NCBI GenBank assembly: GCA_008534395.1
Contig: SHMQ01000007.1
Coordinates: 1 to 64,000 of the forward strand
Origin: Candidatus Acidulodesulfobacterium acidiphilum
Lineage (GTDB): Bacteria; SZUA-79; Acidulodesulfobacterales; Acidulodesulfobacteraceae
Direction of reading: 5' to 3'
DNA: 64,000 bases
Positions within the stretch are counted from its first letter, which is position 1. The number at the start of each line of letters is the position of its first letter. A model generated the notes under the pieces. It did not search any database and was not told the origin of the DNA. It was given only the letters and a program-made list of their open reading frames with translations. Below, piece after piece: positions 45,810 through 62,937 of the stretch. The position numbers were made by a program, and so were the translations under genes.

Positions 45810-46421
45810 TTAATCATTTAAATATTTATATAAAATTTTCCCTTTACGCGTATAAATTATTTTTGAAGGCTCGACTTTTAAAATAAAAATACCGCCTATA
45901 TTTTCTCCCGTATGAATATAATGTTTTTTACCGTTTATTGCTACCAAAGCAGTATTGCCGCCCGTAAATATTAAAACCACTGTCCGTTTATTTTTGCCTG
46001 AAAATCCTTTAAATTTCAAATTTTTAACGACGTTGCTTAAATTTCCGCCTTTATTAAAACCGCTATTTGCGTTAATGAGATACGGCGCCGGTTTTGCAAC
46101 GTAGTCCGCGACTACATTTTTTTGTGACTTTGAGTGCAAAATAAAAAGTCTGCTGTAATTTTCGTATTTTTTATTCGGAATACTAAAAATATCTTTAAGC
46201 GGTTTTTTAGATAATTCCGTAGATTCAGCTTTCAGGTCTGTATATTTACCTTTAACGCTTAAATTGAGCTTAGTAATTTTTTTATTTTTACAAGACGTAT
46301 TATGCAAAATATTTATTTTTTTATTATTTCCCGATTTTAGTCTGCTTAACGTCGATAGCACCGTTATAAATATAAAAAATGCAAAAATAATAACCGCAAA
46401 TTTTTTAACTTTAGATTTCAT
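45810..46421 (-). CDS. PilP/MshK-like pilus assembly protein
   Basis: A 203-residue protein with one N-terminal membrane helix (FAVIIFAFFIFITVL), a basic unstructured middle and a C-terminal domain. The C-terminus ALVAINGKKHYIHTGENIGG...VEPSKIIYTRKGKILYKYL matches the small beta-domain of PilP, MshK and GspC-like proteins that bind the secretin in the periplasm. PilP is usually a lipoprotein, but this version is helix-anchored. GAGGGG lies before the ATG. It is the last gene of the pilus locus. Confidence 0.65.
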   Translation of the reverse strand: MKSKVKKFAVIIFAFFIFITVLSTLSRLKSGNNKKINILHNTSCKNKKITKLNLSVKGKYTDLKAESTELSKKPLKDIFSIPNKKYENYSRLFILHSKSQKNVVADYVAKPAPYLINANSGFNKGGNLSNVVKNLKFKGFSGKNKRTVVLIFTGGNTALVAINGKKHYIHTGENIGGIFILKVEPSKIIYTRKGKILYKYLND

Positions 46422-46449
46422 CAGCCCCTCTTTTTATTAAAATTTATTT

Positions 46450-46953
46450 TTATTTAAAACCAATAAGTTCGGCGTTTATAATTGCATCTATTTTTCTTCC
46501 GGATTTAATATTAATTTTTTTTATTTCGAATGGAAACGATTTAAGCGTCTTTATTAAAGAAAATAAGGCATCGATGTCCGAAAAATTACTTAATGCCACC
46601 GTAAAGTTAGTTATTTTTAAATAAACATCTTGAACATTTTTCCTATTTTCCGTCTTTTGGATGCTAATTCCGATATTAAATCCGTTTTCTTTTAAATATC
46701 TCGCATAAGATAAAAAAGACACCATATAACTATAAAATTCATGTTTTCCAGCCGTAAATTTAATAGTTTTAATCTTATTATCTTTCTTAATATTAATTTT
46801 TAACTGTCTGATAGTATTTTTTTCGTAAGTATATGATTTATTTAATTTATAAAAATAGCTTATAGAAGGTATTAACCCATAAAACAATATACAAGCCGAG
46901 GTTAAAGATAATAAAATTAATATTATCGACCTTTTGTTCTTAATTTTTTTCAT
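46450..46953 (-). CDS. PilO/MshJ-like pilus assembly protein
   Basis: A 167-residue inner-membrane protein with one N-terminal helix (SIILILLSLTSACILFYGLIPSI), a short coiled-coil stretch and a ferredoxin-like periplasmic domain (FNIGISIQKTENRKNVQDVYLKITNFTVALSNFSDIDALFSLIKTLKSFPFEIKKINI). This is the pattern of PilO and GspM-type proteins. Support is from its place between PilN-like and PilP-like genes as well. Confidence 0.65.
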   Translation of the reverse strand: MKKIKNKRSIILILLSLTSACILFYGLIPSISYFYKLNKSYTYEKNTIRQLKINIKKDNKIKTIKFTAGKHEFYSYMVSFLSYARYLKENGFNIGISIQKTENRKNVQDVYLKITNFTVALSNFSDIDALFSLIKTLKSFPFEIKKINIKSGRKIDAIINAELIGFK

Positions 46954-47002
46954 TTTGTATTATTTTTTAATTTGTCGTATTTTGAATATTAGTTTGTTTA
47001 AT

Positions 47003-48196
47003 TTATTTTTTTAGTAATCCTAAAAATTTCATTGAAGGTTTTCCAGATTTGTCGAAAAAATATTTAACGCTTAAAGTTTTTTTTCCGTCCAACTTTTTTG
47101 ATAGCGCATTATAATTATGCGAGAATATCCTATAACCGTCGGTACCAAATACGGTTGCATTAAAAATATATCCTGCTCCCGATTTTATAATATTGATTTT
47201 TTTTATTTTGACGCTTTTCGGTAAAATCGCAAAAAATTTTTTTAAATAATTCGCAATATTAACTTTAGGGAAATCCTCGTTAAATAAAATTTTACTTTTA
47301 TCTTTATCTATTTTTAAAGATAAAACGGAAATTTTTTTGTTCATTTCTCTTATTTTTTGCACTTCGTAAAATGTTTTTTTTCGGTAAGATACAACCAGCA
47401 CTTCCATTAAAAATATAGCAAATATTAAAACTGCGATATAAATATTTTTTGCCCTATTTTTTTTATCTTCTATTTTTTTAAATTTTATTTCTATATCTTC
47501 AAAATGAGGGGTATTTTTGTTTATGCTTTTAAAATATTCAAAAAAATCTTTAGCCGTAAAATTTAATATTTCTACATTTCCGAAAAAATTTTTAAAATCG
47601 GCGCAATCGCATTCGGCAATTATCTGCTCTATTTTAATGCCAATATTTTCGGAATCTATTCTGGTTTTCAAAATATTAAGATTATCCATTAACATATCCG
47701 CCTTAAAACTTAAAACCGGCATTATGCTAAAACCGTTTGAAACTAAAATCATTTTATATACGTCGTCGGTTTTTTCTATAAATAGAAAATCTTTTTTAAG
47801 ATTAATGCCGTTAAATTTTTCTTTTAAAAACTCTATCACCAAAAAATCGTATGGAATAACTATATCTATTCCTTTAAATAACGAATAATATTTTTTAATA
47901 TTTAAAGGCAGGGTATGATAAAATCCGCATCCTCCATTTATACCATCCGCAAAAAAATAAGATTCGTTCTTATAAGATTTTCCTACGTAACGGCTTAAAT
48001 AAAATTTTTTACCGTCTTTTAATCTTTTTTCCGGTATAATCGAAAAATTTATATTTTTAGATATTATCGAAACTGCATGTTCTATTTCAAAATCGGCTGC
48101 ATAATCGTCGATACGTTCATGCGAAAAAAATGATTTATCGCCGTCAAAATACTGATATATATCGTATTCTTCAATATAAATAAAATTTTTATACAT
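47003..48196 (-). CDS. PilM/PilN-like (GspL-like) assembly protein
   Basis: A 397-residue protein: a cytoplasmic N-terminal part of about 240 residues, one membrane helix at about 248-268 (IYIAVLIFAIFLMEVLVVSY), a coiled-coil (VQKIREMNKKISVLSLKIDKDKSKIL) and a periplasmic domain (FFAILPKSVKIKKINIIKSGAGYIFNATVFG). The C-terminal half resembles PilN. The N-terminal half sits where PilM would be and may be a degenerate PilM-like domain; no actin-fold motif was recognised. A GspL-like fusion is the simplest reading. Confidence 0.6.
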   Translation of the reverse strand: MYKNFIYIEEYDIYQYFDGDKSFFSHERIDDYAADFEIEHAVSIISKNINFSIIPEKRLKDGKKFYLSRYVGKSYKNESYFFADGINGGCGFYHTLPLNIKKYYSLFKGIDIVIPYDFLVIEFLKEKFNGINLKKDFLFIEKTDDVYKMILVSNGFSIMPVLSFKADMLMDNLNILKTRIDSENIGIKIEQIIAECDCADFKNFFGNVEILNFTAKDFFEYFKSINKNTPHFEDIEIKFKKIEDKKNRAKNIYIAVLIFAIFLMEVLVVSYRKKTFYEVQKIREMNKKISVLSLKIDKDKSKILFNEDFPKVNIANYLKKFFAILPKSVKIKKINIIKSGAGYIFNATVFGTDGYRIFSHNYNALSKKLDGKKTLSVKYFFDKSGKPSMKFLGLLKK

Positions 48197-48210: not shown

Positions 48211-49173
48211 TTAATTTAATTTTATAAGGTCTGGAAGATAATTTGCAGGTATTTTTATCTCATATCCTGCGGGTTCTACTTGAACGTAATTCATTCCGCC
48301 TTCCCAATAAGAATACCTTACGTTCCCGTAAACTTCAGGAAGATATTTACTCTGAAACGCTCCTCCTACCCAGTAATTTTCGGTATAGGTAACGCCGGAA
48401 TTATTTGTATATGCAGAACCTCCGCCGCATCCGGAATAAGGATCGTTGGCATAGCTCAATATAGCGCTATTTCCGTCAATAGCTTCAACTATAAAATATA
48501 ACTTCAATTCGCCGTCTGCCCAGTCTCTTGACCATCCGTCACGATTATAACGACTCATAGTTTGCGTAACATAACAAATTGCGCCTGTAATATAAAAACT
48601 CTTTCCTATGTACTGTTCATAAATGCCGCCGTCTCCATTGCTTAAGGCTATAGGGTCTATATAAATTATTTCGTTTCCGTTAACTAACGAACTTCCGGGA
48701 ATATCGTGCCTTATTTCTTTATAAAAATTATAATAGTCGTTAGGTTCGCCGCTTTGCGAAGGAGTAACGGCAAGAGTATAACTGATTTCCTGAGCGGTAC
48801 CATTATTAACGGCATTATTAACGCTTAAACATATTTTAGTATCGTCTTCCGTTTTTATACTTCCGTATATGCAATTCGAATTTGGATTGCCTCCGACAAA
48901 ATTTATGCCTATGCCTTTAGCTATGTACCCTGCAGATTGAAGAGAACTTATGCTACTGAATTTACTATTATTATTAACATAGGTACTTTCGGCATTTATC
49001 AAAGTATTTGCCAGAACAGATACGTTTTGCGCTCTATTTTCGCATACAATACCCTGAAGCGCAGGTATGCTTAACGCAGTCATTATCGACAAAACTATCA
49101 TTGAAACAATAATTCCTGCAAGCGAAAATCCTTTATTATTATTTTCTAAAATTTTAGCAAAATTAATATTCAT
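48211..49173 (-). CDS. Large type IV minor pilin without Glu5
   Basis: A 320-residue prepilin. The 15-residue leader ends in Gly (NNNKG) and is followed by FSLAGIIVSMIVLSIMTALSIPAL, a standard hydrophobic helix. Residue +5 is Gly rather than the conserved Glu, as in GspK-like tip subunits. The globular part resembles the next pilin-like protein in its first 100 residues (AQNVSVLANTLINAESTYVNN) and then extends by about 150 residues rich in Tyr, Gly and Asn. A good GGAGG precedes the ATG. A tip or adhesin role is inferred. Confidence 0.75.
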   Translation of the reverse strand: MNINFAKILENNNKGFSLAGIIVSMIVLSIMTALSIPALQGIVCENRAQNVSVLANTLINAESTYVNNNSKFSSISSLQSAGYIAKGIGINFVGGNPNSNCIYGSIKTEDDTKICLSVNNAVNNGTAQEISYTLAVTPSQSGEPNDYYNFYKEIRHDIPGSSLVNGNEIIYIDPIALSNGDGGIYEQYIGKSFYITGAICYVTQTMSRYNRDGWSRDWADGELKLYFIVEAIDGNSAILSYANDPYSGCGGGSAYTNNSGVTYTENYWVGGAFQSKYLPEVYGNVRYSYWEGGMNYVQVEPAGYEIKIPANYLPDLIKLN

Positions 49174-49186
49174 AACACCTCCATTT

Positions 49187-49855
49187 TTAAAAAAGACTTA
49201 AGACAGATGCAAAAAAGTTTGTTATTGTCTGCGTTACTTTTGTTAATAAATTGCTCTGCGTCCCTACGGTATTGGTATAATTAATACCTCCGTTGGCGTT
49301 AGGACTTACGTTTACCGATGAAACCGGTGAAGACGCGCCAGTATTAGAGTTAGAGGCAGAAGCAGAATGAAAAGAGGGCGCTGCGTCGTTTAAACTAAAA
49401 GTTACTACGCCTAAGCCGTTAATATCGGAAACCTGCCCCGTCTTACCCGTTATGCCTTTGCTTATTTCTTTAGCGACTATATCTTCATTGGCCAAATTTA
49501 AAGGAATATAAATTTCGATTGATTCGTTTTGTAAATTAATGCATATATTTGTCGTGCTTTTAAAGAGTAATTTTTCTAAACATGAATCTCCTTGAAAATT
49601 ATAAACTTTCATCGGACTTAAATACGCCGGCTTATTGTTTTCCAAACTCGTGATATCCGTAAAAGTTCCCGTGTTTTGAAAATAAGCATGTTCTGCCTTT
49701 ATTAATAAATCTGTAATATTGACGATATTTTGCGCTTCCATATTATATATTTGACCCTTAGGCATACCGGACATTCCGAAAGAAAATTTTGGCAATAAAA
49801 ATAAGTAAAAAACAAACATTATATTTAAAATAATGTAATAGCCGTAACGTTTCAT
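49187..49855 (-). CDS. Pilin-like globular protein on a Sec signal peptide
   Basis: Begins at ATG 49855, with AAAGG 8 nt upstream; a TTG at 49900 would extend it but lacks a site. The 222-residue protein has an ordinary signal peptide (YYIILNIMFVFYLFLLPKFSFG) and no prepilin G-F cleavage motif. Its first 100 mature residues are clearly related to the neighbouring minor pilin: EAQNIVNITDLLIKAEHAYFQN versus RAQNVSVLANTLINAESTYVNN, followed by F-x2-I-x-SL, then N-F-x-G-x2-C and ICI. The tail is Ser/Asn-rich. It looks like a secreted pilin domain without the polymerisation helix. Such proteins were not recognised by the author as a known family. Confidence 0.6.
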   Translation of the reverse strand: MKRYGYYIILNIMFVFYLFLLPKFSFGMSGMPKGQIYNMEAQNIVNITDLLIKAEHAYFQNTGTFTDITSLENNKPAYLSPMKVYNFQGDSCLEKLLFKSTTNICINLQNESIEIYIPLNLANEDIVAKEISKGITGKTGQVSDINGLGVVTFSLNDAAPSFHSASASNSNTGASSPVSSVNVSPNANGGINYTNTVGTQSNLLTKVTQTITNFFASVLSLF

Positions 49856-49934
49856 ATAAATAACCTTTAATAGCTTTTTTAAGGATTTAATTAATTTCAA
49901 TTTAATTTTCGCTGTTTTAACGATTGTTAACTTG

Positions 49935-50588
49935 TTAATTAAATGTAAAGGTCAGGCTTCCCTGAAAATTTGAATTATTTGCCGAAGCTGCATTACCGTT
50001 GAACAGATCCGTCAAGCAATTTTGACCGTTACCTATGTTAAAGACGGGACTGCCCTCGGTATCTACGCCGGATATTGAGTTTTCTAAAGAATTGCATATG
50101 TTTAAAGCCTGGGCATTCGTCATCTGCGGAGCGTTTATGCCGATGACGTAAATATACTGTCCCGGATTTGAATCGGTAGAAATTTGATATGCGGAAACAA
50201 AACCCGCATTAGGCGGTATAACGTTATTGCCGTTAACCGTCCATGAAGAAGGGAGCAGGTTGTCTTCCTGCATAGCATATGGAAGAGAAACGCCGGCAGG
50301 GGGAATTATACTCCCGCCGTTTACCTGCATATAAGAATTTACGGCCGATTCTAATTTAGTAACCGATTGAACCGTTGCAGTAACATTGGAAGAACCTATT
50401 AATCCGTTATAAACCATTAATCCCCCTGCCGAAAGTATTCCGACTACTATCATTGCGACTATAATTTCCATAAGGGTAAAACCGTTCCCGTTTTTATAAA
50501 TTTTTAGTGAGTGAAAATCCAACTTGTCATTAATTTTTTTGCTTTTTTTGCTTTTAATTTTAATTTCTTTCTTTTTTAGCGCAATCAT
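49935..50588 (-). CDS. Long-leader type IV pilin (PilS/TcpA-like)
   Basis: A 217-residue prepilin. The 36-residue leader (MIALKKKEIK... ending NGNG) precedes FTLMEIIVAMIVVGILSAGG with Glu at +5, so it is assembly competent. The long leader is real because GGAGG lies before this ATG and no later Met exists. The mature domain (NSYMQVNGGSIIPPAG, YVIGINAPQMTNAQALNICNSLENSIS, CLTDLF) has the pattern of PilS/TcpA-type, type IVb pilins with a C-terminal disulfide. It is probably the major subunit. Confidence 0.85.
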   Translation of the reverse strand: MIALKKKEIKIKSKKSKKINDKLDFHSLKIYKNGNGFTLMEIIVAMIVVGILSAGGLMVYNGLIGSSNVTATVQSVTKLESAVNSYMQVNGGSIIPPAGVSLPYAMQEDNLLPSSWTVNGNNVIPPNAGFVSAYQISTDSNPGQYIYVIGINAPQMTNAQALNICNSLENSISGVDTEGSPVFNIGNGQNCLTDLFNGNAASANNSNFQGSLTFTFN

Positions 50589-50647: not shown

Positions 50648-51925
50648 TTAGTAATTAGCCGACAAACCCACCATTCCCTGAATAAGAGGTAAAAATAAAG
50701 AAAAAAACATTAATAGCAAAAAAAGTACTACGCCTATCATTGCAAGCAAAAACAATCCTTTAGTAAATATTTTCATATATCTGTCCGCTTTTTCTTTAAA
50801 TTCCTTAGAAAGATTCAAAACCGTTTCGGATAAAAACCCTCCTATTTCGCCGTACCTTATAGACTCTATGGCATCCTCCGGCAAAAAATCGGCTTTATGC
50901 AAAGAATCAAACAACGTATTGCCTTTAATTAAATCTTGATAAACTGATTTAAATTTATTTCTAAAATATACTTTAGAACTGTTTTTTCCAAAATAATCGA
51001 ATACTGCGTTAACCGTCACGCCCGAAGATATCATTAAAGAAAATTGATAAAAAATCCAGTTTAAATAAGAGTAATTTAAAATATTTTTTAACTGAGGTAT
51101 GTTTTGCAAAAAGGAAAACGCTTTAGTTTTTATTCCGGATAAATCCGACAAAAAAGCGGCGAAAATAAGAACGGCGAAAAATATTATATAGATAAAAATA
51201 TTTTTTAACCGCCCGAACAATTTTAACGTATAAACCGTAGACAAGGGAATATTCGGAAACTGCTTAAAGAATAACGAAAAAGTCGGAACGACGTAATAAA
51301 GAAAAACCGAAAAAGCTATAAACAGCAGTAAAAATAAAAATAAAGGATAAGCTAAGGTTCCTATAATATTTTTTTTATAAATATTTTTAGTTTCGAAATA
51401 TTCGGATATTTTTAAAAAAGATTCCGAATAATCGCCGGTAGATTCCGCTAAATCTATTAAGGAAAGTGCTATTTCTTCAAAATTATTCCTCGCAAACGCT
51501 TCTTTAACGCTTTCCCCTTTATCCAACAAATAAATGCAGTTTTTTATCAATTTTTTACGATTTTTTATCTTTGAAAGCTTATGGCTGTAATATAGGCGCT
51601 TTAATAAATATAGCAAATCATATTTTTTTGAAGATTCAGGCGTTGGTATATCTTTGTCCATATAACTAAAAGATTTGCCGACCGAACCGGTAGATTTGAC
51701 GAGATGATGCAGTTCATTAAAAAACACCGCAAGCTCGGCGTCTTTCATTCCTCCGTTGCCGGTAGGGTTTATTGCATCTAAAAAAATATTGGGTAAAACA
51801 AATGACGGCATATAGCCTTCTTCTAAAATAAGCGTTTCCGCATCCGATAAATTTTGCGCCTTAATATTTCTTATCAGACTTTTACCTTCAGGGGTATAAA
51901 ATTTGACTAAATAATTTTTTAACAT
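50648..51925 (-). CDS. PilC/GspF inner-membrane platform protein
   Basis: A 425-residue polytopic protein with the tandem T2SSF domain structure. First domain is around 150-235 (SVKEAFARNNFEEIALSLIDLAESTGDYSESFLKISEYFE) and second is around 280-420 (NWIFYQFSLMISSGVTVNAVFDYF...FLPEDAIESIRYGEIGGFLSETVLNLSKEF). It coordinates the assembly ATPase with pilin polymerisation. It starts 4 bp after the ATPase stop. Confidence 0.92.
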   Translation of the reverse strand: MLKNYLVKFYTPEGKSLIRNIKAQNLSDAETLILEEGYMPSFVLPNIFLDAINPTGNGGMKDAELAVFFNELHHLVKSTGSVGKSFSYMDKDIPTPESSKKYDLLYLLKRLYYSHKLSKIKNRKKLIKNCIYLLDKGESVKEAFARNNFEEIALSLIDLAESTGDYSESFLKISEYFETKNIYKKNIIGTLAYPLFLFLLLFIAFSVFLYYVVPTFSLFFKQFPNIPLSTVYTLKLFGRLKNIFIYIIFFAVLIFAAFLSDLSGIKTKAFSFLQNIPQLKNILNYSYLNWIFYQFSLMISSGVTVNAVFDYFGKNSSKVYFRNKFKSVYQDLIKGNTLFDSLHKADFLPEDAIESIRYGEIGGFLSETVLNLSKEFKEKADRYMKIFTKGLFLLAMIGVVLFLLLMFFSLFLPLIQGMVGLSANY

Positions 51926-51929
51926 AAAT

Positions 51930-53651
51930 CTACCTCGACAAACTAAAATAAGCTTGGGGATCTATATCGCCTGCAAGCAATTTTTCAAATGCCTGCGTTT
52001 TTAAAGATTTAAATCCCGATAAATTTATTAAAACGGATTCTAAGTAAGACTGATTAAACAATAAATTTAAGTCTTTATATATTTCCTCTTTTGCAGATTC
52101 ATTAAACTCGGCAATTTCAATAAGCGGCTTTCTTTTATCGTATCCCGTTCCGCCGCAACTGTCGCAGTTTTTTTCTCCTCTCACAAAAACGGCATCGAGA
52201 AATTTTACCTCTTTAAAATCTGAAGTCGTATCGATAAATCTTGCTATGTTATTTTTACTTTTTATATTCATTTCATAACCTGTTTCTGGGGTAAATCGTA
52301 AGTCCTGCATCAGGGCTTTTTTGTAAATAGAAGGTAACTCTTCGAAATATATCTTTTTTTTGCATTCTGGACATAAAGGATTATACAGCCTCTGCGCCGT
52401 TACGAATCTTAATACCGAAAATAACTGAACGACATCTATATTTAAAGATTTAAATCTTCCGAATATCGACAGAGACGAATTAGCGTGAAGCGTAGTCATG
52501 ACGAGATGACCCGTTTCTGCAGCCATCAGCGCATGTTTTGCGGTAATTTCGTCCCTTATTTCGCCTATCATCATTATATCCGGCTCGCTTCTCAACATAA
52601 CCCTGACGGCTTCAGGATATCCAAAATCTTCAGATATATTCATTTGCGTTATATTCGATTCGCGTAATTCTATTTCTACCGGATCTTCTATAGTCAAAAT
52701 CGTACCTTTTTTCTGGGACAGCAGTTTAAGCATTGCATAAAATGTAGTAGTTTTTCCGGAACCGGTCGGTCCGGTAGCTATAATAAGTCCGTTTGGGTGT
52801 ATATAAGATTTTTTTAGCAATTCGGCATTTTCTTCCGTAAAACCTATCGATTCAAAATCGAATACTTTATTCAAACCATGAATTCTAAGGACTGCTTCAA
52901 AAAGCATGGTTTCTTTGTCGAGCTTCGATGAAATGGGTAAAAATGCAACTCTAATGCTAACTTTTAACCCTTTATAAAAATTTGAAACAAAAATAAATTT
53001 TGCGTCTAATCCCTCGCCTTTTTTTAAAGTAATTCTGCAATTTGCGGCTATAATATTTATTATCCTCTGTCCCGACTCCAAGCTTAGAACTCTTATGTTT
53101 TCCTGATAAATTTCTCCGTCCATAATAATCATGTAAAAATTTTCCGTTCTTTTTATCCTTAAATTAGGTGATCCTTTTAATAACGCTATTTCAATTGCCT
53201 CGTTTAAAATTTCTTTTTCGGAGAACTCTTTATTGCTAATAAATATCTTACTGAGCGCTTCGTAAATTTTTCTTTTCGTAGAAATAGCTATTTTATAAGA
53301 TTTAAGACGTTCGTCAAAAGCTATCTTTCCCGACAAAGATGATGTAATTTCATTGCAAACTATATAGCTGATCCCGTCTTTTTTTGCTATTACGGCTGGA
53401 ATATCATATAGCAGGGCAAAGCCGAAATATTCATTTTCCTTTTTATCTATATAAAACGAATTTAAATCGCCGAAAAATTCTCTTCCTGAACTGTCTGCCG
53501 CATAAAGCGCTATATCGGCATCTGTAACATAGCCACAATCCGTTAATATTTCACCCAGTCTTTTTTTGCCGATAGACTGCATGAATAGTGCATCTTTAAG
53601 CTGTTCTTCAGTAAACTTTCTTTTCGATATAAAATATTCGCCGATTTTCAT
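51930..53651 (-). CDS. PilB/MshE-like pilus assembly ATPase
   Basis: Hexameric ATPase powering pilin insertion. An N-terminal MshEN-like domain (KFTEEQLKDALFMQSIGKKRLGEILTDCGYVTDADI) may bind c-di-GMP, though its motif was not verified. The core has Walker A GPTGSGKTTTFYAML near residue 292, the Asp box EDPVEIEL, Walker B GEIRD and the His box TTLHAN. Two Cys pairs, CPEC near 446 and CDSCGG near 508, form the usual zinc site but are about 60 residues apart, an unusually long insertion. Start ATG 53651 is chosen over TTG 53666. This gives 573 residues. Confidence 0.92.
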   Translation of the reverse strand: MKIGEYFISKRKFTEEQLKDALFMQSIGKKRLGEILTDCGYVTDADIALYAADSSGREFFGDLNSFYIDKKENEYFGFALLYDIPAVIAKKDGISYIVCNEITSSLSGKIAFDERLKSYKIAISTKRKIYEALSKIFISNKEFSEKEILNEAIEIALLKGSPNLRIKRTENFYMIIMDGEIYQENIRVLSLESGQRIINIIAANCRITLKKGEGLDAKFIFVSNFYKGLKVSIRVAFLPISSKLDKETMLFEAVLRIHGLNKVFDFESIGFTEENAELLKKSYIHPNGLIIATGPTGSGKTTTFYAMLKLLSQKKGTILTIEDPVEIELRESNITQMNISEDFGYPEAVRVMLRSEPDIMMIGEIRDEITAKHALMAAETGHLVMTTLHANSSLSIFGRFKSLNIDVVQLFSVLRFVTAQRLYNPLCPECKKKIYFEELPSIYKKALMQDLRFTPETGYEMNIKSKNNIARFIDTTSDFKEVKFLDAVFVRGEKNCDSCGGTGYDKRKPLIEIAEFNESAKEEIYKDLNLLFNQSYLESVLINLSGFKSLKTQAFEKLLAGDIDPQAYFSLSR

Positions 53652-53822
53652 ATGACTAAAAAACAAATAAATTTATTATTGATTTATTTTGATATCTTTA
53701 TTGTTTGTTTATAAATCTTTATGCTCTATATATACGTATATACATAAACATCTATAATAAACACGAATGAAAATTTTTATTTTATACTCATTTTCTGCTG
53801 CAAATTTTTTGTAAATTCAGCT

Positions 53823-55556
53823 TTATCTGATTATTTTCGGCGTAAGCATTATAAGCAGGTCTTCTTTTTCATCGGTATCGTTTACAGACTTGAAAAAATT
53901 GCCAAACAGAGGTATTTTAGAAAATATAGGAATTCCGTACGTATTTTTAACTTTATCAGTCGTAAGTATTCCTCCTACAAGTATCGTCGAACCCGACTTT
54001 ACGTTTACGGTGTCGGAAAAGCTTTTCGATTCTATTACAGGATTACTGAAACTTTCCTCCCCGATTGCAAAAGACTGATAGCCTGTAATAGAATTATCTA
54101 TTAGGCTTAACGTAACGGAAACGGAATTATTTTTAAAATTTATATGAGGAGTAAAAGATATCGAAAGCCCCGTTTGAACCTGAGATATAACAGGATAAGT
54201 TTCCGTCTGCGACAAACTTAGCGACATCGTCTGAATACTCGAAACATAAGGGGTTATAGTGCCGGAAGATATAAGCCTCGTCTGCCCATCCATTAAAACA
54301 AGCCTTGGCTGAGAGATAACGTCGACTGCCCCCTGAGTCCTCAAAGCGTTTAAAATTGCGCTGTTGCTTCCAGAACCCTTAAAACCTATATACGGCGCAT
54401 TAGAAATATTGTTTGAAGACGCAAGCTGAGCCGAAACCGACAATGAATCCGCCCCAAAAACATTAGACTTAAAAGCCTGATTAAATAATAAATTCCAGTT
54501 TATTCCCGCCTGAAATCCTTTATTTAAATTTACGTCTATTACCTCAACTTTTAAAAACACCTGTTTTGAAAGAAACTTATTTATTCTTTTTATATAAGCC
54601 GCAACTTCATTGACATTTGAAACTCTGTCTTTTACCCATATCAATCCGTCTTTCGGATTAATAAAATATTTTCCGTTTTTAGTTAACATTTCTTTTATAT
54701 TTCTGGAAATTATAGAATATAGACTGTCCGATTCCGACAATGTAAGCGAAAGCGAACCGGAAGGATTGCCCGAATAACCGCCGCCGTTTCCATAATTACC
54801 GTTTACGCCGGAGTTTATTAAACCGGAAGACAAAGAATCAGAAGAACCTGAACCGGATGATTCGGTATTTCCTCCTGTAATACCCGTCCCGCCTCCTTCC
54901 GGTATTTCTTGAGTATTTCCGTTATTAATGCTAGAATTAACGCCTCCTCCTTCTATACCGCTCATGCCGACTGTCGAAGAAAAAGTTGATAATAGATCCG
55001 ATACCGGAATATGGAAGGTTTTTTCTTCTACGGCATAAACATAAAGCATTTTATTTTTATAACTGTAAGCAAAACCGTTAGAAACCAAAAGTCCGTTTAA
55101 AACTTTATACAACGGAATATCTTTATAATATGCTTCGTTCTTCAATTTATCAGGAAAACCCCTGTAAATTACAAAAGGAACGCCCGTTTCATGAGATAAA
55201 GTCATTAATGCGGATTTTACGCTTCCGTTTCCGGAAAGTGAAATTCTTTGCCTCAAAAAATAAGGCATATTCATATTCATTTTAGTTAAACTTTTTTTGC
55301 AGATTGCTCCGTTAATTTCTTCACAACCTCTATTTTTACGAACATTTACAGATAGACGATCCTCCTTTTTCCCATCGAAATTAATATGTACTATTCCGGC
55401 TTTTTTAATTTTTATCCCGTATTTCTTAAGTAATTCGTTAAAACTGTTTTGATTCTTATTATAAGCTGCGCATACTTTAACCGAAAAAATCATACCGATA
55501 CTTGCAACTGCAGTAATAAATATAAACGCCGATAATTTTTTGTTTTTAATTTTCAT
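53823..55556 (-). CDS. Outer-membrane secretin, MshL/PilQ-like
   Basis: A 577-residue exported channel subunit. A signal peptide (FIFITAVASIGMIFSVKVCAA) is followed by an N0/STN-like domain (VPFVIYRGFPDKLKNEAYYKDIPLYKVLNGLLVSNGFAY). A Gly/Ser/Asn-rich linker occupies about 195-270. The secretin domain ends with VDVISQPRLVLMDGQTRLISSGT and SILVGGILTTDKVKNTYGIPIFSKIPLFGNFFKS and the terminal KEDLLIMLTPKII. It is the first gene of the pilus locus and lies behind the six-repeat promoter. Confidence 0.93.
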   Translation of the reverse strand: MKIKNKKLSAFIFITAVASIGMIFSVKVCAAYNKNQNSFNELLKKYGIKIKKAGIVHINFDGKKEDRLSVNVRKNRGCEEINGAICKKSLTKMNMNMPYFLRQRISLSGNGSVKSALMTLSHETGVPFVIYRGFPDKLKNEAYYKDIPLYKVLNGLLVSNGFAYSYKNKMLYVYAVEEKTFHIPVSDLLSTFSSTVGMSGIEGGGVNSSINNGNTQEIPEGGGTGITGGNTESSGSGSSDSLSSGLINSGVNGNYGNGGGYSGNPSGSLSLTLSESDSLYSIISRNIKEMLTKNGKYFINPKDGLIWVKDRVSNVNEVAAYIKRINKFLSKQVFLKVEVIDVNLNKGFQAGINWNLLFNQAFKSNVFGADSLSVSAQLASSNNISNAPYIGFKGSGSNSAILNALRTQGAVDVISQPRLVLMDGQTRLISSGTITPYVSSIQTMSLSLSQTETYPVISQVQTGLSISFTPHINFKNNSVSVTLSLIDNSITGYQSFAIGEESFSNPVIESKSFSDTVNVKSGSTILVGGILTTDKVKNTYGIPIFSKIPLFGNFFKSVNDTDEKEDLLIMLTPKIIR

Positions 55557-55600: not shown

Positions 55601-55676
55601 ATTATATTTTTTTAATGTTTCCACATTATGACAATTTTGTTACATTTACATTAAATTTTTGTTAAATTTATGTTAC
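55601..55676 (-). promoter_or_regulatory. Six-unit 11-bp-phased promoter of the pilus operon
   Basis: On the minus strand, pentamers GTAAC, TTAAC, TTAAT, GTAAC, GTCAT and GAAAC begin at exactly 11-bp steps (plus-strand starts 55672, 55661, 55650, 55639, 55628, 55617). TATAAT follows at 55601-55606, 45 bp before the secretin start codon. The same six units, spacing and -10 position recur at 62856-62931 before comM. The repeated TTGTCATAAT-N3-GAAACA block is shared almost exactly. An 11-bp phase suits an OmpR/PhoB-type activator, which is inference. Confidence 0.8.
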
Positions 55677-55984
55677 ATATCGGGCAAGATTATAGTAAAA
55701 ATCTTTATTGAAAGGTTTTTATAGTGAATCGCGGACTAAAAAAACGAAATATATATACAAAAATTCATGATGATATTTTAGAAAATTTTAAATGACTATA
55801 ATCAAACAACTAAATAAAAATAGAATCAATGGATAAACCTTGGCCGACGACGCTTAATATTCACAAGCTCCGTTTAATACATGCTTTCGACACAACGTAC
55901 TTTAAAAAACGCATTTCGATAATTGACAGAAATAGGTATAAATGGTATTATTTATATATATTAAAGATAATACTATCCAATTAT
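55677..55984. other. AT-rich gap before tRNA-Arg(TCT)
   Basis: No supported gene. A rightward frame at 55829-56023 runs into the tRNA and is not a protein gene. Nothing else specific is seen apart from likely tRNA promoter sequence. Confidence 0.5.
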
Positions 55985-56061
55985 GCGTTCATAGCTCAGA
56001 TGGATAGAGCAACAGCCTTCTAAGCTGTGGGTCGCAGGTTCGAATCCTGCTGGACGCACCA
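55985..56061 (+). tRNA. tRNA-Arg(TCT)
   Basis: Complete cloverleaf: acceptor gcgttca/tggacgc, D stem gctc/gagc, anticodon stem acagc/gctgt with loop cttctaa (anticodon TCT, codon AGA), T arm gcagg-ttcgaat-cctgc, encoded CCA. Both tRNAs in the window are arginine tRNAs. Confidence 0.97.
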
Positions 56062-56287
56062 TTAAATCAAGGGTTTTAATATCGTTTTTAAAACCTTCTC
56101 GCGTCAAAGAAATGTAAAGTTTCGGGAAATATATACATAGCTTATATTTAAAAATTCTTCCTTTGTAAACATTTTAAAACTCTTAAAATAAGAAATTATT
56201 TTAAAAATATAACATATTTATATTTTAAAATTTTCTTGATATAATTTAAAAAAAATGATATCTTTAATAGCGCTTCAATGTTAGTTT

Positions 56288-56320
56288 ATATAAAAATATA
56301 ATATCGTTATATTTTTATAT
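56288..56320. other. AT-only stem-loop before the TDT gene
   Basis: Perfect 14-bp arms (atataaaaatataa and its complement) with a 5-nt loop, 41 bp upstream of the transporter ATG. Could be an operator, a leader structure or chance AT-rich symmetry. The rest of the 56062-56360 gap shows no gene. Confidence 0.35.
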
Positions 56321-56360
56321 CTAATAATTAAACAATATAAATATAATTTATTTAAAATCT

Positions 56361-57539
56361 ATGAAAAAAGATATTAAAAAAAACGGCTCGTTTGTCAACA
56401 ATTTGCGCCCGTTGAAACAAATGAACAAACCGAGCGACCTTATAAGACAATTCACCCCAAACTGGTTTACTATGAATATGGGTACTGGAATTTTGTCTCT
56501 TATGCTGGGAGCTTTCCCGTTTTATGTGCCGGGTCTCTTAATGGTAGCTAAAACTTTATGGGTTATAAATATTTTTCTTTTTGTAATCTTTAGCGTTTTA
56601 TTTATAGGCAGATTTGTTTTTTATTTTAAATCGGCGGTAAAGTTGTTCGGCCACCCGATTCAATCCATGTTTCTTGGAGCTATTCCTATGGGATTGGTAA
56701 CTATTATAAACGGTTTTTTAAATTTCGCAGGCCCGAAAATGGTCAATCTTGCTTTCTATTTATGGTGGATAGACGTAATAATAAGCGTTATTGTAGGTAT
56801 TCTTGTGCCTTTCTATATGTTCACTAACCATACCCACAGCATTGAAGACATGACTGCCGTATGGCTATTGCCTATAGTACCCGCCGAAGTTGCGGCTTCT
56901 TCGGGAGGTTTTCTTGCTCCGCATTTAGCGGCGGCGGCGGCAAGAGTAGTAGTAGTTACCGGCTATGCTTTATGGGCATTCTCGGTTCCTTTAGCTTTCG
57001 GCGTTCTCGTTATACTGTTTTTGCGTCTTGCCTGGCACAAATTGCCGCATAAAGATATGGCGGTTTCTACCTGGTTGACGCTGGGTCCGATAGGCACGGG
57101 AAGTTTAGGACTTCTTCTCCTGGGAAGCGATGCACCGCGTGCATTTATCGGCACTAAACTTTTTATTTACGCTAAAACGGCTGCAGCATTCGGTCCTATA
57201 GGCGGGCTGGTTATATGGGGATTCGGTTTCTGGTGGCTTATTATTGCATTATTATTAACTATAAGATATGTAAAAGAAGGAATGCCTTTTAATATGGGCT
57301 GGTGGGGATTTACCTTCCCGCTGGGTGTTTACACTGCAGCTACGATTATATTCTATAGGATTACCGGTATTGAATTTTTCAGGATTACTGGGGCTATATT
57401 CGTCATAATGCTTGCTGGATTCTGGACGTTAGTTACGTCGAGAACGCTTCATGGCATGTGGCACGGCTATCTTTTTAAAGCTCCGTGCCTGTCGACAGAA
57501 ACTGGTTTGCCGGACGAATCTAAAGAATGCCCTGTTTAA
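56361..57539 (+). CDS. TDT-family anion/dicarboxylate transporter
   Basis: A 392-residue integral membrane protein of the TehA/Mae1/SLAC1 family with about 10 helices. The opening FTPNWFTMNMGTGILSLMLGAFPF and later AVWLLPIVPAEVAASSGGFLAP, and MGWWGFTFPLGVYTAATIIFY are hallmark sequences. Members export sulfite, malate or other anions, or are anion channels. The substrate here is unknown; sulfite or C4-acid export would fit a sulfur-cycling anaerobe, but this is inference. Confidence 0.88.
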   Translation: MKKDIKKNGSFVNNLRPLKQMNKPSDLIRQFTPNWFTMNMGTGILSLMLGAFPFYVPGLLMVAKTLWVINIFLFVIFSVLFIGRFVFYFKSAVKLFGHPIQSMFLGAIPMGLVTIINGFLNFAGPKMVNLAFYLWWIDVIISVIVGILVPFYMFTNHTHSIEDMTAVWLLPIVPAEVAASSGGFLAPHLAAAAARVVVVTGYALWAFSVPLAFGVLVILFLRLAWHKLPHKDMAVSTWLTLGPIGTGSLGLLLLGSDAPRAFIGTKLFIYAKTAAAFGPIGGLVIWGFGFWWLIIALLLTIRYVKEGMPFNMGWWGFTFPLGVYTAATIIFYRITGIEFFRITGAIFVIMLAGFWTLVTSRTLHGMWHGYLFKAPCLSTETGLPDESKECPV

Positions 57540-57559
57540 TTCAATATCTTAATCTTGCA

Positions 57560-58162
57560 TTATAATACAACCGTAATAACTTCTTCGACATTCATCCTCG
57601 ACGATTTAGACTTTCTTTCGACCGGTTTTCCGACAGGAATCAATGCAACGAGATTGTCGGGGCTTTTAATACCGAGTATGTTTTCTATTTCAGGTTTGGC
57701 GATTAGGGGTCCCGTCATCCAGCATGCCCCAAGTCCTTCGTTGTGAACTACAAGCAAAATGTGGGCTATAAAGCTGGATACGCCCTGAAGTCCCGGATTT
57801 ACTATAAATTTTCTGGCGAAATTCCTGTCTTTATTTTTATCGTTATTTTCAAGTATTTTATCAATACTGCCGGTATACGGCTTCTCCACGACTGCAAGTA
57901 CGACCGGCGCTTCGTTAAAAAATGCATAAACGTCCGGCGCATCTTTGCCCGTTACGTTTTTATATACGGTTTCCACTTCGCTTCTCATTTTATTAAGAAT
58001 ATCTTTGTTTTTAATTATATATGTAAACCAGTTTTGAGCGTTTCCCCCGCTTGGCGAATTTATAGAAATTTCCATAATTTTTTTTATCAGATTCAAATCA
58101 ACGTCTTCAGACTCGAATTTTCTTATGCTCTTTCTGGTTTTAACTGCTTCTATTAAGTCCAA
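57560..58162 (-). CDS. Nitroreductase-family protein
   Basis: A 200-residue FMN-binding oxidoreductase. The N-terminal motif is RKSIRKFESEDVDLNLIKKIMEISINSPSGGNAQNW, with a C-terminal GLGACWMTGPLIAKPEIENILGI and VALIPVGKPVERKSK. The family reduces nitro groups, quinones or other acceptors. The start is TTG with GGAG 7 nt upstream. The gene is convergent with the TDT transporter, 20 bp apart. Confidence 0.9.
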   Translation of the reverse strand: MDLIEAVKTRKSIRKFESEDVDLNLIKKIMEISINSPSGGNAQNWFTYIIKNKDILNKMRSEVETVYKNVTGKDAPDVYAFFNEAPVVLAVVEKPYTGSIDKILENNDKNKDRNFARKFIVNPGLQGVSSFIAHILLVVHNEGLGACWMTGPLIAKPEIENILGIKSPDNLVALIPVGKPVERKSKSSRMNVEEVITVVL

Positions 58163-58255
58163 TTTACGTCTCCTTTTTGCAAAACATTTATTTATATGCT
58201 TATTTCGTTTAAAGCTCCGAAATTATCGTAATATTATATAACAAAAACGATTTAA

Positions 58256-60541
58256 TTAAAACGGCTGATTCAATCCGAAATAATATCTGACCCCGTATTC
58301 AGAGCCGACTCTGTCGCCGAACGCTTTTGCGGCGTAAAAACTAAACATTTCGGGATATATCCCGAAAAAGTAAGTTTTGAAGTGCAAACCGAGTCCCGCA
58401 AAACTATATATAACGCCTTTATGAATAACCGAAGGAACGGTATCGTCAAGCTTGCCTGCGCCGCCTATTACGTTTCCGGTCACGGCGGTTATATCAATAA
58501 GGTTATCTAATAGATTCAAGTTTAATCCCCGGTATATATTTCTTTCATAATCTGCTTCGGCAATTACGGCATCGTTACCGATAAAGGGTTCGCTTGCAGG
58601 TATACCCATAATGCCGTTAATTCCGCCCAGATAATAATCAAGAGCTTCGGGAACGTTTCCGTCGGCAAAAACGCCTATGCCTCTTACGGATATTATGTTA
58701 TCCGCATTTATTTTAAAATTTCTTACATACTGCAGCATAAACTGACTAAAGGAAAAAGGCGAAAATATATTTGAATTGGCTATATTATAAGTAAAGTTAA
58801 ACGATGAACCGTATTGAGGATTAATATTATAATCTACCGAATTATATCCATAGCCGACTGTAAATTCCGTCAGTCTTTTAGAATTTTGATAAATTACAGA
58901 ATCGCCCGATGCAGAGGGGCTTATCTGCATAAAATTTATCGAACCGAAAATCGACTGCCTGTATGTCTGGGCGACAGGAAAAAAATTTCCAAGCTGATGA
59001 GACAAACCTATGCTTATGCCTCTTCCGTAATATGTTTTAAATATATTAAATAAAATGCCGTTTCTATAACCGTGTTTTTTCGTCAGGGTAAAATTTAGAT
59101 AGCCTTCAGAACGTCCGCTATCAGGACTTATATTACCGCCTGTACTGCTTAGGAAAAGTTTATAATAGTCGTTTTTCTTTTTACTTAAAATTTTTTTTTC
59201 AATCTTTTCTTTGTTTATAATATTTAAATCGTTATTGTAATAATATACTCCGTTTTTAAACCCGTGCGTGCGCGGAAAACCTGTAAAATATATATAATAC
59301 AAAGGAAATATAGGATAATTTATAACCGTATTTACTCCCTGAATAAAATTAAATTTTTTAACGATATTTTTTATATTCGGATTGCTATTTATATATTTTT
59401 TCAAAAACGTTTTGAATTCTAAATCAGTATATTTTTTTAATTCTTGCGAATACAGGTAGTACTTGTAACTGCTCATACCAATGCTTATTTCGTTTATAAA
59501 TTTTTTATAATTAACCGTGTTTAAATATATTAATCCTTTTATAATATTTAATTTTTGATATATATAAAAATTTGGAAAAATATTGCCGAATCTCGTGCTT
59601 ATTAAAATAGTTTTTGAATATAAAGGCGGTTTTAGCCATAAACTCCGCCTTAAATGAACGTAAACTATATTTATTTTTTTTAATTTCAACATATTGTATT
59701 TATCCAATAATAACGCCGCCTTGTCTATTTTTTTATTTGACCGTCCAAAATTGTACGGGTAAGGCTGAAAAAAAAATATAGATAAACCTGTTTTTACGTT
59801 AGAAATTCTGCTTTTTATAAATTTTTTTGCGAATATTAAAGAAATAAAATTAGTTCTCTTCCCGATAAAAAAGTTTTTTTTATAAATTTTGCCGTTAAAA
59901 AACGCTTTATATCCGGCTTTTATTTTAAGATTAACTTTAAAATTAATATCGGTTTGGGGATTAAATTTTTTGCCTGAGGAAATATATGGATAAAACGGAG
60001 CATTAATTACTGTTTCTTGTTTAAAATGCCCGAAGTTGCCGATTGCCTGAGGAATTTTCGTCTTAAAAACAATTTTAACTTTATAAGATTTGTATAATTT
60101 ATGTATTGTCGAACTATAAGATAAACTCTTTATGCTTATATATCCCCTATTAAAATCGTAAGGGTAAAGCTGATGAAAATCAAAATCTTTTATATTCTTA
60201 GGTTTTTTATAAAAGATGTTCGGATAAAACATAATATAAAAATTACGATAAATTTTTATATATATGCCTCTGAAATTTTTATATTTATCGCCGATTTTTT
60301 TTATTTTACGATATTTTTCTTCATATTTTTTTTTAAAATTATACCGGATATAATTAATTATTTCACTGCCGGATATAGTTTCGGTTTTCGGATTAAAAAC
60401 AGCATTTATTTTAACGGTCTGCATAGGAAATTTGTCGCCGTAAATATGAATTATTCCCGCATATGCGCCGTTAGTGACGCATAACAAACAAAAAACTGCT
60501 ATCGCAAAACTTAACGTTAAAACTTTTACAAAGTTTTTCAT
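58256..60541 (-). CDS. Omp85-type barrel with degenerate M1-peptidase-like N-terminus
   Basis: A 761-residue exported protein. Start ATG 60541 gives a clean signal peptide (VLTLSFAIAVFCLLCVTNGAYA). After it, KINAVFNPKTETISGSEIINYI resembles the N-terminal beta-saddle of M1 aminopeptidases, and further on KTKIPQAIGNFGHFK and FYPYISSG recall the grooved region (W-x-P). No HExxH zinc motif was found. Residues about 500-761 are an Omp85/surface-antigen-type barrel (TEFTVGYGYNSVDYNINPQYG; GGINGIMGIPASEPFIG; NDAVIAEADYERNIYRG) ending in Phe. The combination is not a familiar one. The role may be outer-membrane assembly or secretion. Confidence 0.65.
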   Translation of the reverse strand: MKNFVKVLTLSFAIAVFCLLCVTNGAYAGIIHIYGDKFPMQTVKINAVFNPKTETISGSEIINYIRYNFKKKYEEKYRKIKKIGDKYKNFRGIYIKIYRNFYIMFYPNIFYKKPKNIKDFDFHQLYPYDFNRGYISIKSLSYSSTIHKLYKSYKVKIVFKTKIPQAIGNFGHFKQETVINAPFYPYISSGKKFNPQTDINFKVNLKIKAGYKAFFNGKIYKKNFFIGKRTNFISLIFAKKFIKSRISNVKTGLSIFFFQPYPYNFGRSNKKIDKAALLLDKYNMLKLKKINIVYVHLRRSLWLKPPLYSKTILISTRFGNIFPNFYIYQKLNIIKGLIYLNTVNYKKFINEISIGMSSYKYYLYSQELKKYTDLEFKTFLKKYINSNPNIKNIVKKFNFIQGVNTVINYPIFPLYYIYFTGFPRTHGFKNGVYYYNNDLNIINKEKIEKKILSKKKNDYYKLFLSSTGGNISPDSGRSEGYLNFTLTKKHGYRNGILFNIFKTYYGRGISIGLSHQLGNFFPVAQTYRQSIFGSINFMQISPSASGDSVIYQNSKRLTEFTVGYGYNSVDYNINPQYGSSFNFTYNIANSNIFSPFSFSQFMLQYVRNFKINADNIISVRGIGVFADGNVPEALDYYLGGINGIMGIPASEPFIGNDAVIAEADYERNIYRGLNLNLLDNLIDITAVTGNVIGGAGKLDDTVPSVIHKGVIYSFAGLGLHFKTYFFGIYPEMFSFYAAKAFGDRVGSEYGVRYYFGLNQPF

Positions 60542-60640
60542 TGATTTAAATAGCAAATTTATAATATAATCATAAAAAACATTAAAGCTATACTATTTTA
60601 ATTTTACCTTAAATAGTTTAAAAATAAAGCGTTAAATATT

Positions 60641-61123
60641 ATGGGCGTTACATTCAAACTCGCTGAAATTAACGGCGTAACACTTAAAAGAATCGAAAAA
60701 TATATAGACGAACGGGGTTGGCTTGCGGAACTTTACAGGAGCGACGAATTAGACGAATCCGTTTTCCCTCAGATGTCTTATGTATCTTTAACAATGCCTA
60801 GAGTGCAAAGAGGACCTCACGAACACGTATATCAAACCGACTATTTTTGCTTTATAGGCCCTTCCGATTTTAAAATTATATTGTGGGACAACAGAAAAGA
60901 TTCCCCTACATACATGAATAAAATGATACTGTTTCTCGGTGAAAATAAGCCTTCGGCACTGACGGTGCCTCCTGGCGTAGTTCACGCATATAAAAACATA
61001 GGCGGAAAAAACGGTCTCGTTATTAATGCCGCCAATAAATTATTCGCCGGAAAAAATAAAAAAGAGCCGGTTGACGAAATCAGATATGAATCCGACCCCA
61101 AAACTATATTTATTTTCGATTAG
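60641..61123 (+). CDS. RmlC-like dTDP-sugar epimerase family cupin
   Basis: A 160-residue cupin. The RmlC family motifs are DERGWLAELYRSDEL, MSYVSLTMPRVQRGPHEHVYQTDYF and ILWDNRKDSPTY, then TVPPGVVHAYKN. dTDP-4-dehydrorhamnose 3,5-epimerase relatives make rhamnose precursors for surface glycans. It is shorter than a standard RmlC (about 180), and no rmlA, rmlB or rmlD are adjacent, so the substrate is open. Confidence 0.85.
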   Translation: MGVTFKLAEINGVTLKRIEKYIDERGWLAELYRSDELDESVFPQMSYVSLTMPRVQRGPHEHVYQTDYFCFIGPSDFKIILWDNRKDSPTYMNKMILFLGENKPSALTVPPGVVHAYKNIGGKNGLVINAANKLFAGKNKKEPVDEIRYESDPKTIFIFD

Positions 61124-61145
61124 ATAAATATAATTTGGATAATCT

Positions 61146-62804
61146 TTACGCTTTTATAAGTTTTGTATTCCTGTAATTTAATGCTTCCAACACGGAATCT
61201 GCATCTACTTCTTCTTTCATGTCGAGGTCGGCTATAGTCCTTGAAACGCGCAATATTCTATAATAGCCCCTTGAAGAAATATTTAATCTTTTTACGGCTT
61301 TTTGTGCAAGATTAAGGGCTTCATTCGTTATGTTAAAATATTTTTCTATATCTGTGCTTTTTGCCGACGAGTTAAACCTGATGCAGCTATCTTTATATCT
61401 GCTAATCTGAATATTTCTAGTTTTTTCGACTAATTTTTTAATATCGTCGGAATCTGGCAAATCGGCTTTAACGGTTAATTCGTCTAAATCCGCAGGATAA
61501 ACCTCTATAAATATGTCGAATCTGTCGAGAATAGGTCCCGATATTTTAGTATAAAACTTATAAATGTCGGCGCTTGAACATTTACACTCATGTTTTGCGT
61601 CTCCGTAATAGCCGCAAGGACAAGGGTTCATTGCGGCGACAAGCATAAAATTGCTGGGCAGAATTATAGAAAAACGGCTTCTGGATAAATTAATATACTT
61701 ATCTTCCATAGGCTGCCTTAATCCATCTATAGTTTTTCTGTTAAGTTCGGAAAATTCGTCTATAAAAAGAACGCCGTTATGCGCAAGGCTTATATCGCCG
61801 GGCAGAGGATTAGAACCGCCCCCTCCGCCTATTAATCCCGCAAGAGATACAGTATGATGCACGACAATAAAAGGTCTTCTTAATATAAGTCCGTTTTCCT
61901 CGCCGCAATTTTTTTTATTTTTATTTGAAAAACTGTATATATTGGACGTCTCTAAAGATTCTTCAAGCGATAAGTCTGGTTGTATCCATGCTATACTATG
62001 CGCCAGCATAGTTTTTCCGCTTCCCGGAGGTCCGACCATTAATATGTTATGGTGACCTGCTATAGCGGTTAAAACGGCTCTTTTAGCAAACTCCTGCCCC
62101 TTTATTTCGGCAAAATCGACATACTGCCCCCGCTCTTTTTTTACGGCGTTTGCATTTTCGATAACATTTTTAAAGTAAAGATTTTCTTCATTCTCGTTAA
62201 CGTCATATTTGCCGTTTTCTTTATTTTCGTAATTTATATTTATCTTATTATTAAAATAAACTTGGGATTCTTTTTCTTCTATTGAATAATAATCTTTTCC
62301 TCCCGAAATAAACATACATAATTCTTTTAAACTGCCGAATGCCGCAAAATCGACTCCAAGAAATTTTGCCGCATTTATGTTTTCATACGGAATAATTAAC
62401 TTTTTATTTATTTTTTTAGCAAGTATTCCAAGCGCAATTATGCCGTTAATTTTTTTTATTTTTCCGTTTAAAGACAGCTCTCCGGCAATTATATAATCGT
62501 TAAGGTTTAAGGCGCATTTAAGGAGTCCTGCGGAAATTAAAATGCCTATTGCAAGCGGCAGGTCGAATATCGGACCTTCTTTCCTTATATCGGCAGGGGC
62601 TAGATTTATAGTTATTTTTTTAACCGGATATTCAAAACCGGAATTTTTTATCGCGGCTCTTACTCTGTCCTTGGCCTCTTTGGTGGAAACATCGGGTAAC
62701 CCTACTATCATAATGCCCGGTATGCCGCCCGATATAAAAACTTCTACGTTTACCCGAACTGCATCTATTCCGATGAAAGTCGCACTGTTTAAAGCAGTTA
62801 TCAT
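61146..62804 (-). CDS. comM: YifB/ComM-family Mg-chelatase-like AAA+ ATPase
   Basis: A 552-residue AAA+ protein. The N-terminal Lon-protease-like domain (MITALNSATFIGIDAVRVNVEVFISGGIPGIMIVGLPD) is fused to an Mg-chelatase-type ATPase with Walker A MVGPPGSGKTMLAH near residue 253, GVLFIDEFSELNRK and AAMNPCPCGYYGD. The C-terminal domain ends RGYYRILRVSRTIADLD. In several bacteria ComM is a helicase helping branch migration during natural transformation. Its promoter resembles that of the pilus operon in this window. It is convergent with the RmlC-like gene. Confidence 0.92.
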   Translation of the reverse strand: MITALNSATFIGIDAVRVNVEVFISGGIPGIMIVGLPDVSTKEAKDRVRAAIKNSGFEYPVKKITINLAPADIRKEGPIFDLPLAIGILISAGLLKCALNLNDYIIAGELSLNGKIKKINGIIALGILAKKINKKLIIPYENINAAKFLGVDFAAFGSLKELCMFISGGKDYYSIEEKESQVYFNNKININYENKENGKYDVNENEENLYFKNVIENANAVKKERGQYVDFAEIKGQEFAKRAVLTAIAGHHNILMVGPPGSGKTMLAHSIAWIQPDLSLEESLETSNIYSFSNKNKKNCGEENGLILRRPFIVVHHTVSLAGLIGGGGGSNPLPGDISLAHNGVLFIDEFSELNRKTIDGLRQPMEDKYINLSRSRFSIILPSNFMLVAAMNPCPCGYYGDAKHECKCSSADIYKFYTKISGPILDRFDIFIEVYPADLDELTVKADLPDSDDIKKLVEKTRNIQISRYKDSCIRFNSSAKSTDIEKYFNITNEALNLAQKAVKRLNISSRGYYRILRVSRTIADLDMKEEVDADSVLEALNYRNTKLIKA

Positions 62805-62855
62805 AATACCTAAACCTCTTCTAATTTAATAAATAATTAAAATCCGTTATTATTT

Positions 62856-62931
62856 ATTATAAAAAGAAATTGTTTCAGGATTATGACAAATATGTTACGA
62901 TTGCGTTAAATTTTTGTTACGATTGCGTTAC
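62856..62931 (-). promoter_or_regulatory. Six-unit 11-bp-phased promoter of comM
   Basis: On the minus strand, pentamers GTAAC, GTAAC, TTAAC, GTAAC, GTCAT and GAAAC at an exact 11-bp period (plus starts 62927, 62916, 62905, 62894, 62883, 62872), then TATAAT (62856-62861), 52 bp before the comM ATG. Unit order, phase and the 15-bp step to the -10 match the pilus promoter at 55601-55676. The linker between unit 5 and unit 6 begins AAT in both. Confidence 0.8.
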
Positions 62932-62937
62932 AATATC

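Follow-up and report, generated by a model that had tools for sequence, protein, structure and literature searches.

The window analyzed here, a 64,000-nucleotide stretch of the genome of Candidatus Acidulodesulfobacterium acidiphilum (this genome is denoted G000 and its contigs are denoted by C numbers), carries on its minus strand a secretin pilus operon and the gene comM, each preceded by an array of 11-bp repeats. The features are as follows.

45810..48196, minus strand: distal genes of the pilus operon (397, 167 and 203 aa), no Pfam match
48211..50588, minus strand: prepilin-like genes (49935-50588 matching PF07963; 49187-49900 and 48211-49173 assigned by eye)
50648..51925, minus strand: GspF/ComGB-like inner-membrane platform protein
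51930..53666, minus strand: GspE/PilB-type assembly ATPase; its N-terminus bears an MshE-like c-di-GMP motif
53823..55556, minus strand: secretin (PF00263; in NCBIfam best matched by MshL, with a score under the cut-off), which is the first gene in the operon
55601..55606, minus strand: TATAAT, the -10 of the pilus operon; the last half-site starts 16 nt before it
55612..55677, minus strand: six PHO-type 11-bp half-sites 5' of the pilus (secretin) operon, read directly (singly 55667-55677, 55656-55666, 55645-55655, 55634-55644, 55623-55633 and 55612-55622)
61146..62804, minus strand: comM/YifB (TIGR00368, 522 bits, over cut-off)
62856..62861, minus strand: TATAAT, the -10 of comM; the last half-site starts 16 nt before it
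62867..62932, minus strand: six PHO-type 11-bp half-sites 5' of comM, read directly (singly 62922-62932, 62911-62921, 62900-62910, 62889-62899, 62878-62888 and 62867-62877)

The pilus ATPase and platform protein have ComGA-like and ComGB-like matches, respectively, and the distal genes of the operon, by their position, probably encode further assembly proteins. The c-di-GMP motif of the ATPase (51930-53666) is of the MshE type and scores just below the cut-off; the presence of such a motif suggests that the pilus may also be responsive to c-di-GMP.

Read directly on the minus strand, the promoter of the pilus operon (55677-55601) is TGTAACATAAA TTTAACAAAAA TTTAATGTAAA TGTAACAAAAT TGTCATAATGT GGAAACATTAA AAAAATATAAT and the promoter of comM (62932-62856) is TGTAACGCAAT CGTAACAAAAA TTTAACGCAAT CGTAACATATT TGTCATAATCC TGAAACAATTT CTTTTTATAAT. 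Both consist of six head-to-tail 11-bp units followed by TATAAT, and the two 77-nt stretches align without gaps, with the majority of columns identical. The pentamers stand in the phases given for both promoters by the original prediction (GTAAC/TTAAC types at 0, 11, 22 and 33 bp, GTCAT at 44, GAAAC at 55 and TATAAT at 70), and the distances of 45 bp and 52 bp from the -10 to the ATG of the pilus operon and comM, respectively, were also reproduced. The TTGTCATAAT-N3-GAAACA block, described earlier as nearly identical in the two promoters, is indeed so, and the exact block is found at these two promoters only in the 2.09-Mb genome. The half-site consensus is TGTAACA/TTTAACA, and unit 5 alone reads TGTCATA (compared with the E. 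coli consensus CTGTCAT).

Runs of four consecutive [GT]T[AC]A[CT] pentamers occur four times in the window at 11-bp spacing and not once at spacings of 7–10 or 12–15 bp, and none appeared in 100 order-2 shuffles of the window. When the four-unit pattern was searched genome-wide with at most one mismatch, 43 overlapping matches were obtained, compared with 4 for the reversed control. Pattern and model searches of the whole genome converge on about 19 sites, nearly all of them directly 5' of open reading frames, rather than on the hundreds of random sites that would have spoken against a promoter element. Weak model matches at C14:41615 and C15:22184 and on C40, C9 and C25 were dropped after reading because they are coding or unlike the array. 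The sites fall into two classes, of which the short one comprises eight sites with three or four units:

Short array: pstS (TIGR00975, over cut-off)
Short array: gene for a phosphate:H+ symporter-like MFS protein
Short arrays, two sites: phosphoesterase/TonB cluster
Short array: CHAD-Ppx-Ppk
Short array: gene for a 518-aa protein
Short array: short gene with no named role
Short array: short gene directly 3' of ppk

Three of these eight sites precede genes without a recognizable phosphate role. All remaining sites constitute the long class and have six units each:

Six-unit array: pilus operon
Six-unit array: comM
Six-unit array: VirB/VirD4-type (type IV) secretion operon on C11
Six-unit array: gene for a 109-aa protein
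Six-unit arrays: two coiled-coil paralogues
Six-unit array: gene for a 465-aa protein that has an HNH-like motif; a TPR gene comes next
Six-unit arrays: a small gene present twice, next to tyrosine recombinases
Six-unit array: REP-type transposase
Six-unit array, tentative: ssb

None of the six-unit genes with a readable function is a phosphate gene. We do not count ssb as a clear target and keep it as tentative, as its array lies between ssb and divergent prepilin genes and a correctly spaced -10 is absent.

The short and the long arrays are nevertheless related. With a model built from the eight short arrays alone, those eight rank at the top genome-wide and the six-unit sites are the next 13, and therefore we regard both classes as a single motif, the PHO box; conversely, the short sites are recovered by the model (R1) built from the two window arrays. 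In every one of the eight short arrays the -10 lies 16 nt from where the last unit starts. Of nine long arrays, seven have this spacing, provided that the weaker hexamer TTAAAT (4/6) of the type IV secretion operon is included, and two have 17 nt. The promoters of E. coli phoA and pstS, measured as yardsticks, likewise have 16 nt between the last half-site and the -10.

The PHO box is described as two 11-nt direct repeats, each of seven conserved and four less conserved bases, with a consensus that varies by species (PMC4415409). The arrays described here share with the Pho regulon (PhoB in E. coli, PhoP in Bacillus, SphR in cyanobacteria) the 11-bp direct repeats of 7+4 bases (PMC4415409), a box that stands in place of the -35 at a fixed distance of 16 nt from the -10 (as in E. 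coli phoA and pstS), the occurrence of this element also at phosphate genes in the genome (pstS, ppk and ppx among them), and an encoded regulator whose recognition helix is identical to that of PhoB. They differ in the half-sites (TGTAACA/TTTAACA with one TGTCATA), in the existence of a second class with six half-sites, in targets such as the pilus, comM, VirB/VirD4-type and HNH-motif genes, and in that the PhoB-like regulator is not encoded beside a kinase gene. The closest match in layout is the four-unit promoter of E. coli pstS, TGTCATAAAAC TGTCATATTCC TTACATATAAC TGTCACCTGTT with TATTTT following at 16 nt from the point where the last unit begins; the pilus and comM arrays exceed it by two units. 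Consequently, the original prediction that a six-unit array is longer than the usual two-unit boxes holds only in part: six units are an extension of a known layout and not a new kind, while four units, as in E. coli pstS, are not unusual. Its proposal of activator-dependent promoters under an OmpR/PhoB-type regulator gains support from the identical spacing of units and -10 at pstS, the symporter gene and ppx-ppk and from the PhoB-like regulator encoded in the genome, and the comparison supports a more exact naming of the class, as an extended PHO box. Taken together, these sequence comparisons make it probable that the arrays at the pilus operon and at comM represent extended PHO-box promoters that are read by a PhoB-type regulator within the Pho regulon of the family.

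Only two proteins with an OmpR-type DNA-binding domain (PF00486) were found in the genome, encoded on C15 and C1. The C15 regulator is matched best by the PhoB model TIGR02154, at 248 bits against a cut-off of 296, and RegX3 is its nearest relative with a solved structure. The recognition helix of C15, RTVDVHIRRLR, has exactly the residues found in E. coli PhoB; the genome thus encodes a PhoB/PhoP-type regulator with the matching helix, though one that scores below the NCBIfam cut-off for PhoB. It is an orphan without an adjoining kinase gene. The C1 regulator (G000:C1:250-954) adjoins a histidine kinase and has the helix RTVDVLIGRIR, which departs from that of PhoB. The C15-type regulator was not found in 6 of 16 genomes of the genus, where about two absences are expected from the stated completeness, and the four-unit pstS array persists in four of those six. 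Given its helix and model match, C15 is the likely reader of the arrays; its incomplete occurrence is the reason why we take this identity as likely and not as settled. The claim that both array classes are under one regulator is independent of that regulator's identity. Autoregulation of the PhoB-like gene was rejected, since no array was found at the C15 regulator gene, either in its own locus or in relatives.

The six-unit model has matches in all 24 other genomes of the family (SZUA-79 / Candidatus Acidulodesulfobacterales) and in none of 16 genomes outside it. The relatives include Candidatus Acididesulfobacter diazotrophicus, and we take the names of the relatives to belong to the order SZUA-79 / Candidatus Acidulodesulfobacterales. 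An array found with the six-unit model lies directly 5' of comM in 16 relatives and an array in register lies 5' of the secretin gene in at least 14; nearly every genome of the family that possesses these genes has arrays at them. The secretin array has five or six units in 15 genomes, including G000, and comM has a weaker four-unit form in genus g2 and in G018. The pstS array has four units in all nine genomes where the start of the gene is readable. The difference between four and six units is accordingly a kept feature and not noise: the six-unit promoters are a family-wide set, longer than the promoters of pstS with their four units. The secretion operon, the 109-aa and coiled-coil genes, the HNH-motif gene, the small multi-copy genes and the transposase also recur with arrays in relatives.

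The other six-unit genes include some with recognizable relationships. The secretion operon on C11 (L322:4776-18774) encodes VirB4/TraC-, VirB6-, VirB10- and VirD4/TraG-like proteins, a MoxR-type ATPase and a transglycosylase, as well as VirB2-, VirB3-, VirB5- and VirB8-like proteins that were assigned by position and by eye; no relaxase was found in the stretch of C11 that was read, and a TdeIII-type restriction system lies 3' of the operon. The operon is chromosomal, conserved in the family and has its own six-unit array. The 465-aa protein (G000:C27, L323:1801-4376) has H292, H293, N304 and H316 retained in all six aligned relatives, a HH...N...H pattern of the kind seen in HNH nucleases, although this putative assignment is marginal in Pfam (E = 0.36) and the predicted structure (mean pLDDT 41.5) is too poor for a structural search. 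The combination of this gene with the TPR gene and the six-unit array is conserved across the family.

A gene of about 77 codons (MFIxELIF...) has six-unit arrays (L031:388-467, L035:5042-5121) and is found in several copies per genome, with copies in relatives at L136-L138, L151, L173, L183 and L184. Its copies in G000 adjoin tyrosine recombinases, and it has the appearance of a mobile-element gene with a PHO-type promoter. The coiled-coil paralogues MEEIKKSEDYMNMS... (C14, L028:2179-2927; C19, L029:5200-5771) have near-identical promoters and are recurrent in relatives, and genes for REP-associated tyrosine transposases (L032:64-1092; L143, L164, L180) have six-unit arrays on their 5' side in several genomes. 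An inverted repeat rich in GTAAC/GTTAC is located at L035:4640-4715, between the integrase gene and the small gene of about 77 codons.

Other explanations of the six-unit arrays have to be weighed against an extended PHO box. The genome is AT-rich and some copies lie near integrases and a REP-type transposase, as one might expect from chance repeats or from a dispersed repeat element without a regulatory role. We consider this hardly credible, as chance in AT-rich DNA is disfavoured by the shuffles, the spacing test and the reversed-control scan, and a dispersed repeat is disfavoured by the conservation of position and spacing 5' of orthologous genes across several genera, with no match in the genomes outside the family. 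It is unlikely, though less plainly so, that the six-unit arrays are read by the C1 OmpR-type regulator in response to another signal while the Pho regulon is limited to the short arrays. Both classes agree in their last two units and in the -10 spacing, the model of each class finds the other, the C1 helix is unlike that of PhoB, and G011 and G013 have arrays while the only regulator found in them is of the C15 type; on the other hand, two OmpR-type regulators do exist in the genome, array length sets the recognizable phosphate genes apart from the rest, and several relatives in which no PhoB-like regulator was found do have one of the C1 type.

The arrays could also represent a competence box dedicated to DNA-uptake pili, ComM and SSB with no relation to phosphate. 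This reading draws on the ComGA/ComGB-like ATPase and platform protein of the secretin pilus, on an operator common to the pilus assembly genes and comM, and on the array 5' of ssb, and it has a parallel in the CRP-S/Sxy competence promoters of Pasteurellaceae, where one operator is likewise common to comM and pilus genes. The CRP-S site is a palindromic CRP-type site, unlike the 11-bp direct repeats found here. Moreover, pstS and ppx-ppk carry the same boxes, the ssb array is without a -10 at the right distance, and ComEC (PF03772), which is present in Pasteurellaceae, was not found in G000, a genome rated 100% complete, by a search that was positive in 10 control genomes. The missing ComEC weakens the case for a classical competence regulon and makes ordinary competence or classical DNA uptake unlikely, and we judge the dedicated competence regulon to be very improbable.

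If the arrays are extended PHO boxes, the six head-to-tail half-sites would constitute three PHO boxes bound by a phosphorylated PhoB-type regulator, most likely the orphan C15. The last pair of half-sites would take the place of the -35, and the regulator bound there would contact sigma-70, the -10 being 16 nt away from the last half-site, a spacing that E. coli phoA and pstS also have. The pilus operon and comM would then belong to a sub-group of the Pho regulon with six half-sites, compared with three or four at the genes for phosphate uptake and polyphosphate. The two additional half-sites probably shift the threshold or make the response steeper; by increasing occupancy or cooperativity, such upstream half-sites could provide a threshold specific to this second tier.

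The six-unit set, which comprises pilus/secretin, ComM, VirB/VirD4-type, HNH-motif and mobile-element genes, looks like a set that serves, when phosphate is low, the exchange of DNA or the handling of nucleic acids. Arrays shared with a secretion system of the DNA-transfer type suggest that phosphate shortage may switch on a programme of DNA exchange; export, exchange or other use of DNA is possible, given that ComEC was not found in G000. A connection between phosphate starvation and type IV secretion has a precedent in the P1 promoter of Agrobacterium virG, a regulator of type IV secretion that is induced by phosphate starvation (PMC4285021). In Agrobacterium the effect on the type IV secretion regulon is exerted through the regulator gene virG, whereas here the arrays are located at the secretion operon itself. 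Among open-licence papers, we found none that connects PHO boxes in this manner with comM, with competence pili or with a type IV secretion operon. A stronger and rather speculative version, which we consider unlikely, is that six-half-site PHO promoters and phosphate starvation would bring a coordinated DNA-exchange machine into action (VirB/VirD4-type secretion, secretin pilus, ComM and HNH-type protein) in a family without detected ComEC, with DNA moved between cells or scavenged for phosphorus by a non-classical route and with the number of half-sites setting the order of response.

The arrays are real and conserved, and they are best filed as an extended PHO-box variant with an unusual set of targets. 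If this reading is correct, the number of half-sites would split one regulon into two tiers conserved in the family, with three or four half-sites at the genes for phosphate acquisition and six at those for the pilus, ComM and secretion, and the family would offer a natural system for the effect of extra half-sites on the PhoB response. It would also tie phosphate shortage, in uncultivated acid-mine bacteria of which one genome has no detected ComEC, to the exchange of DNA.
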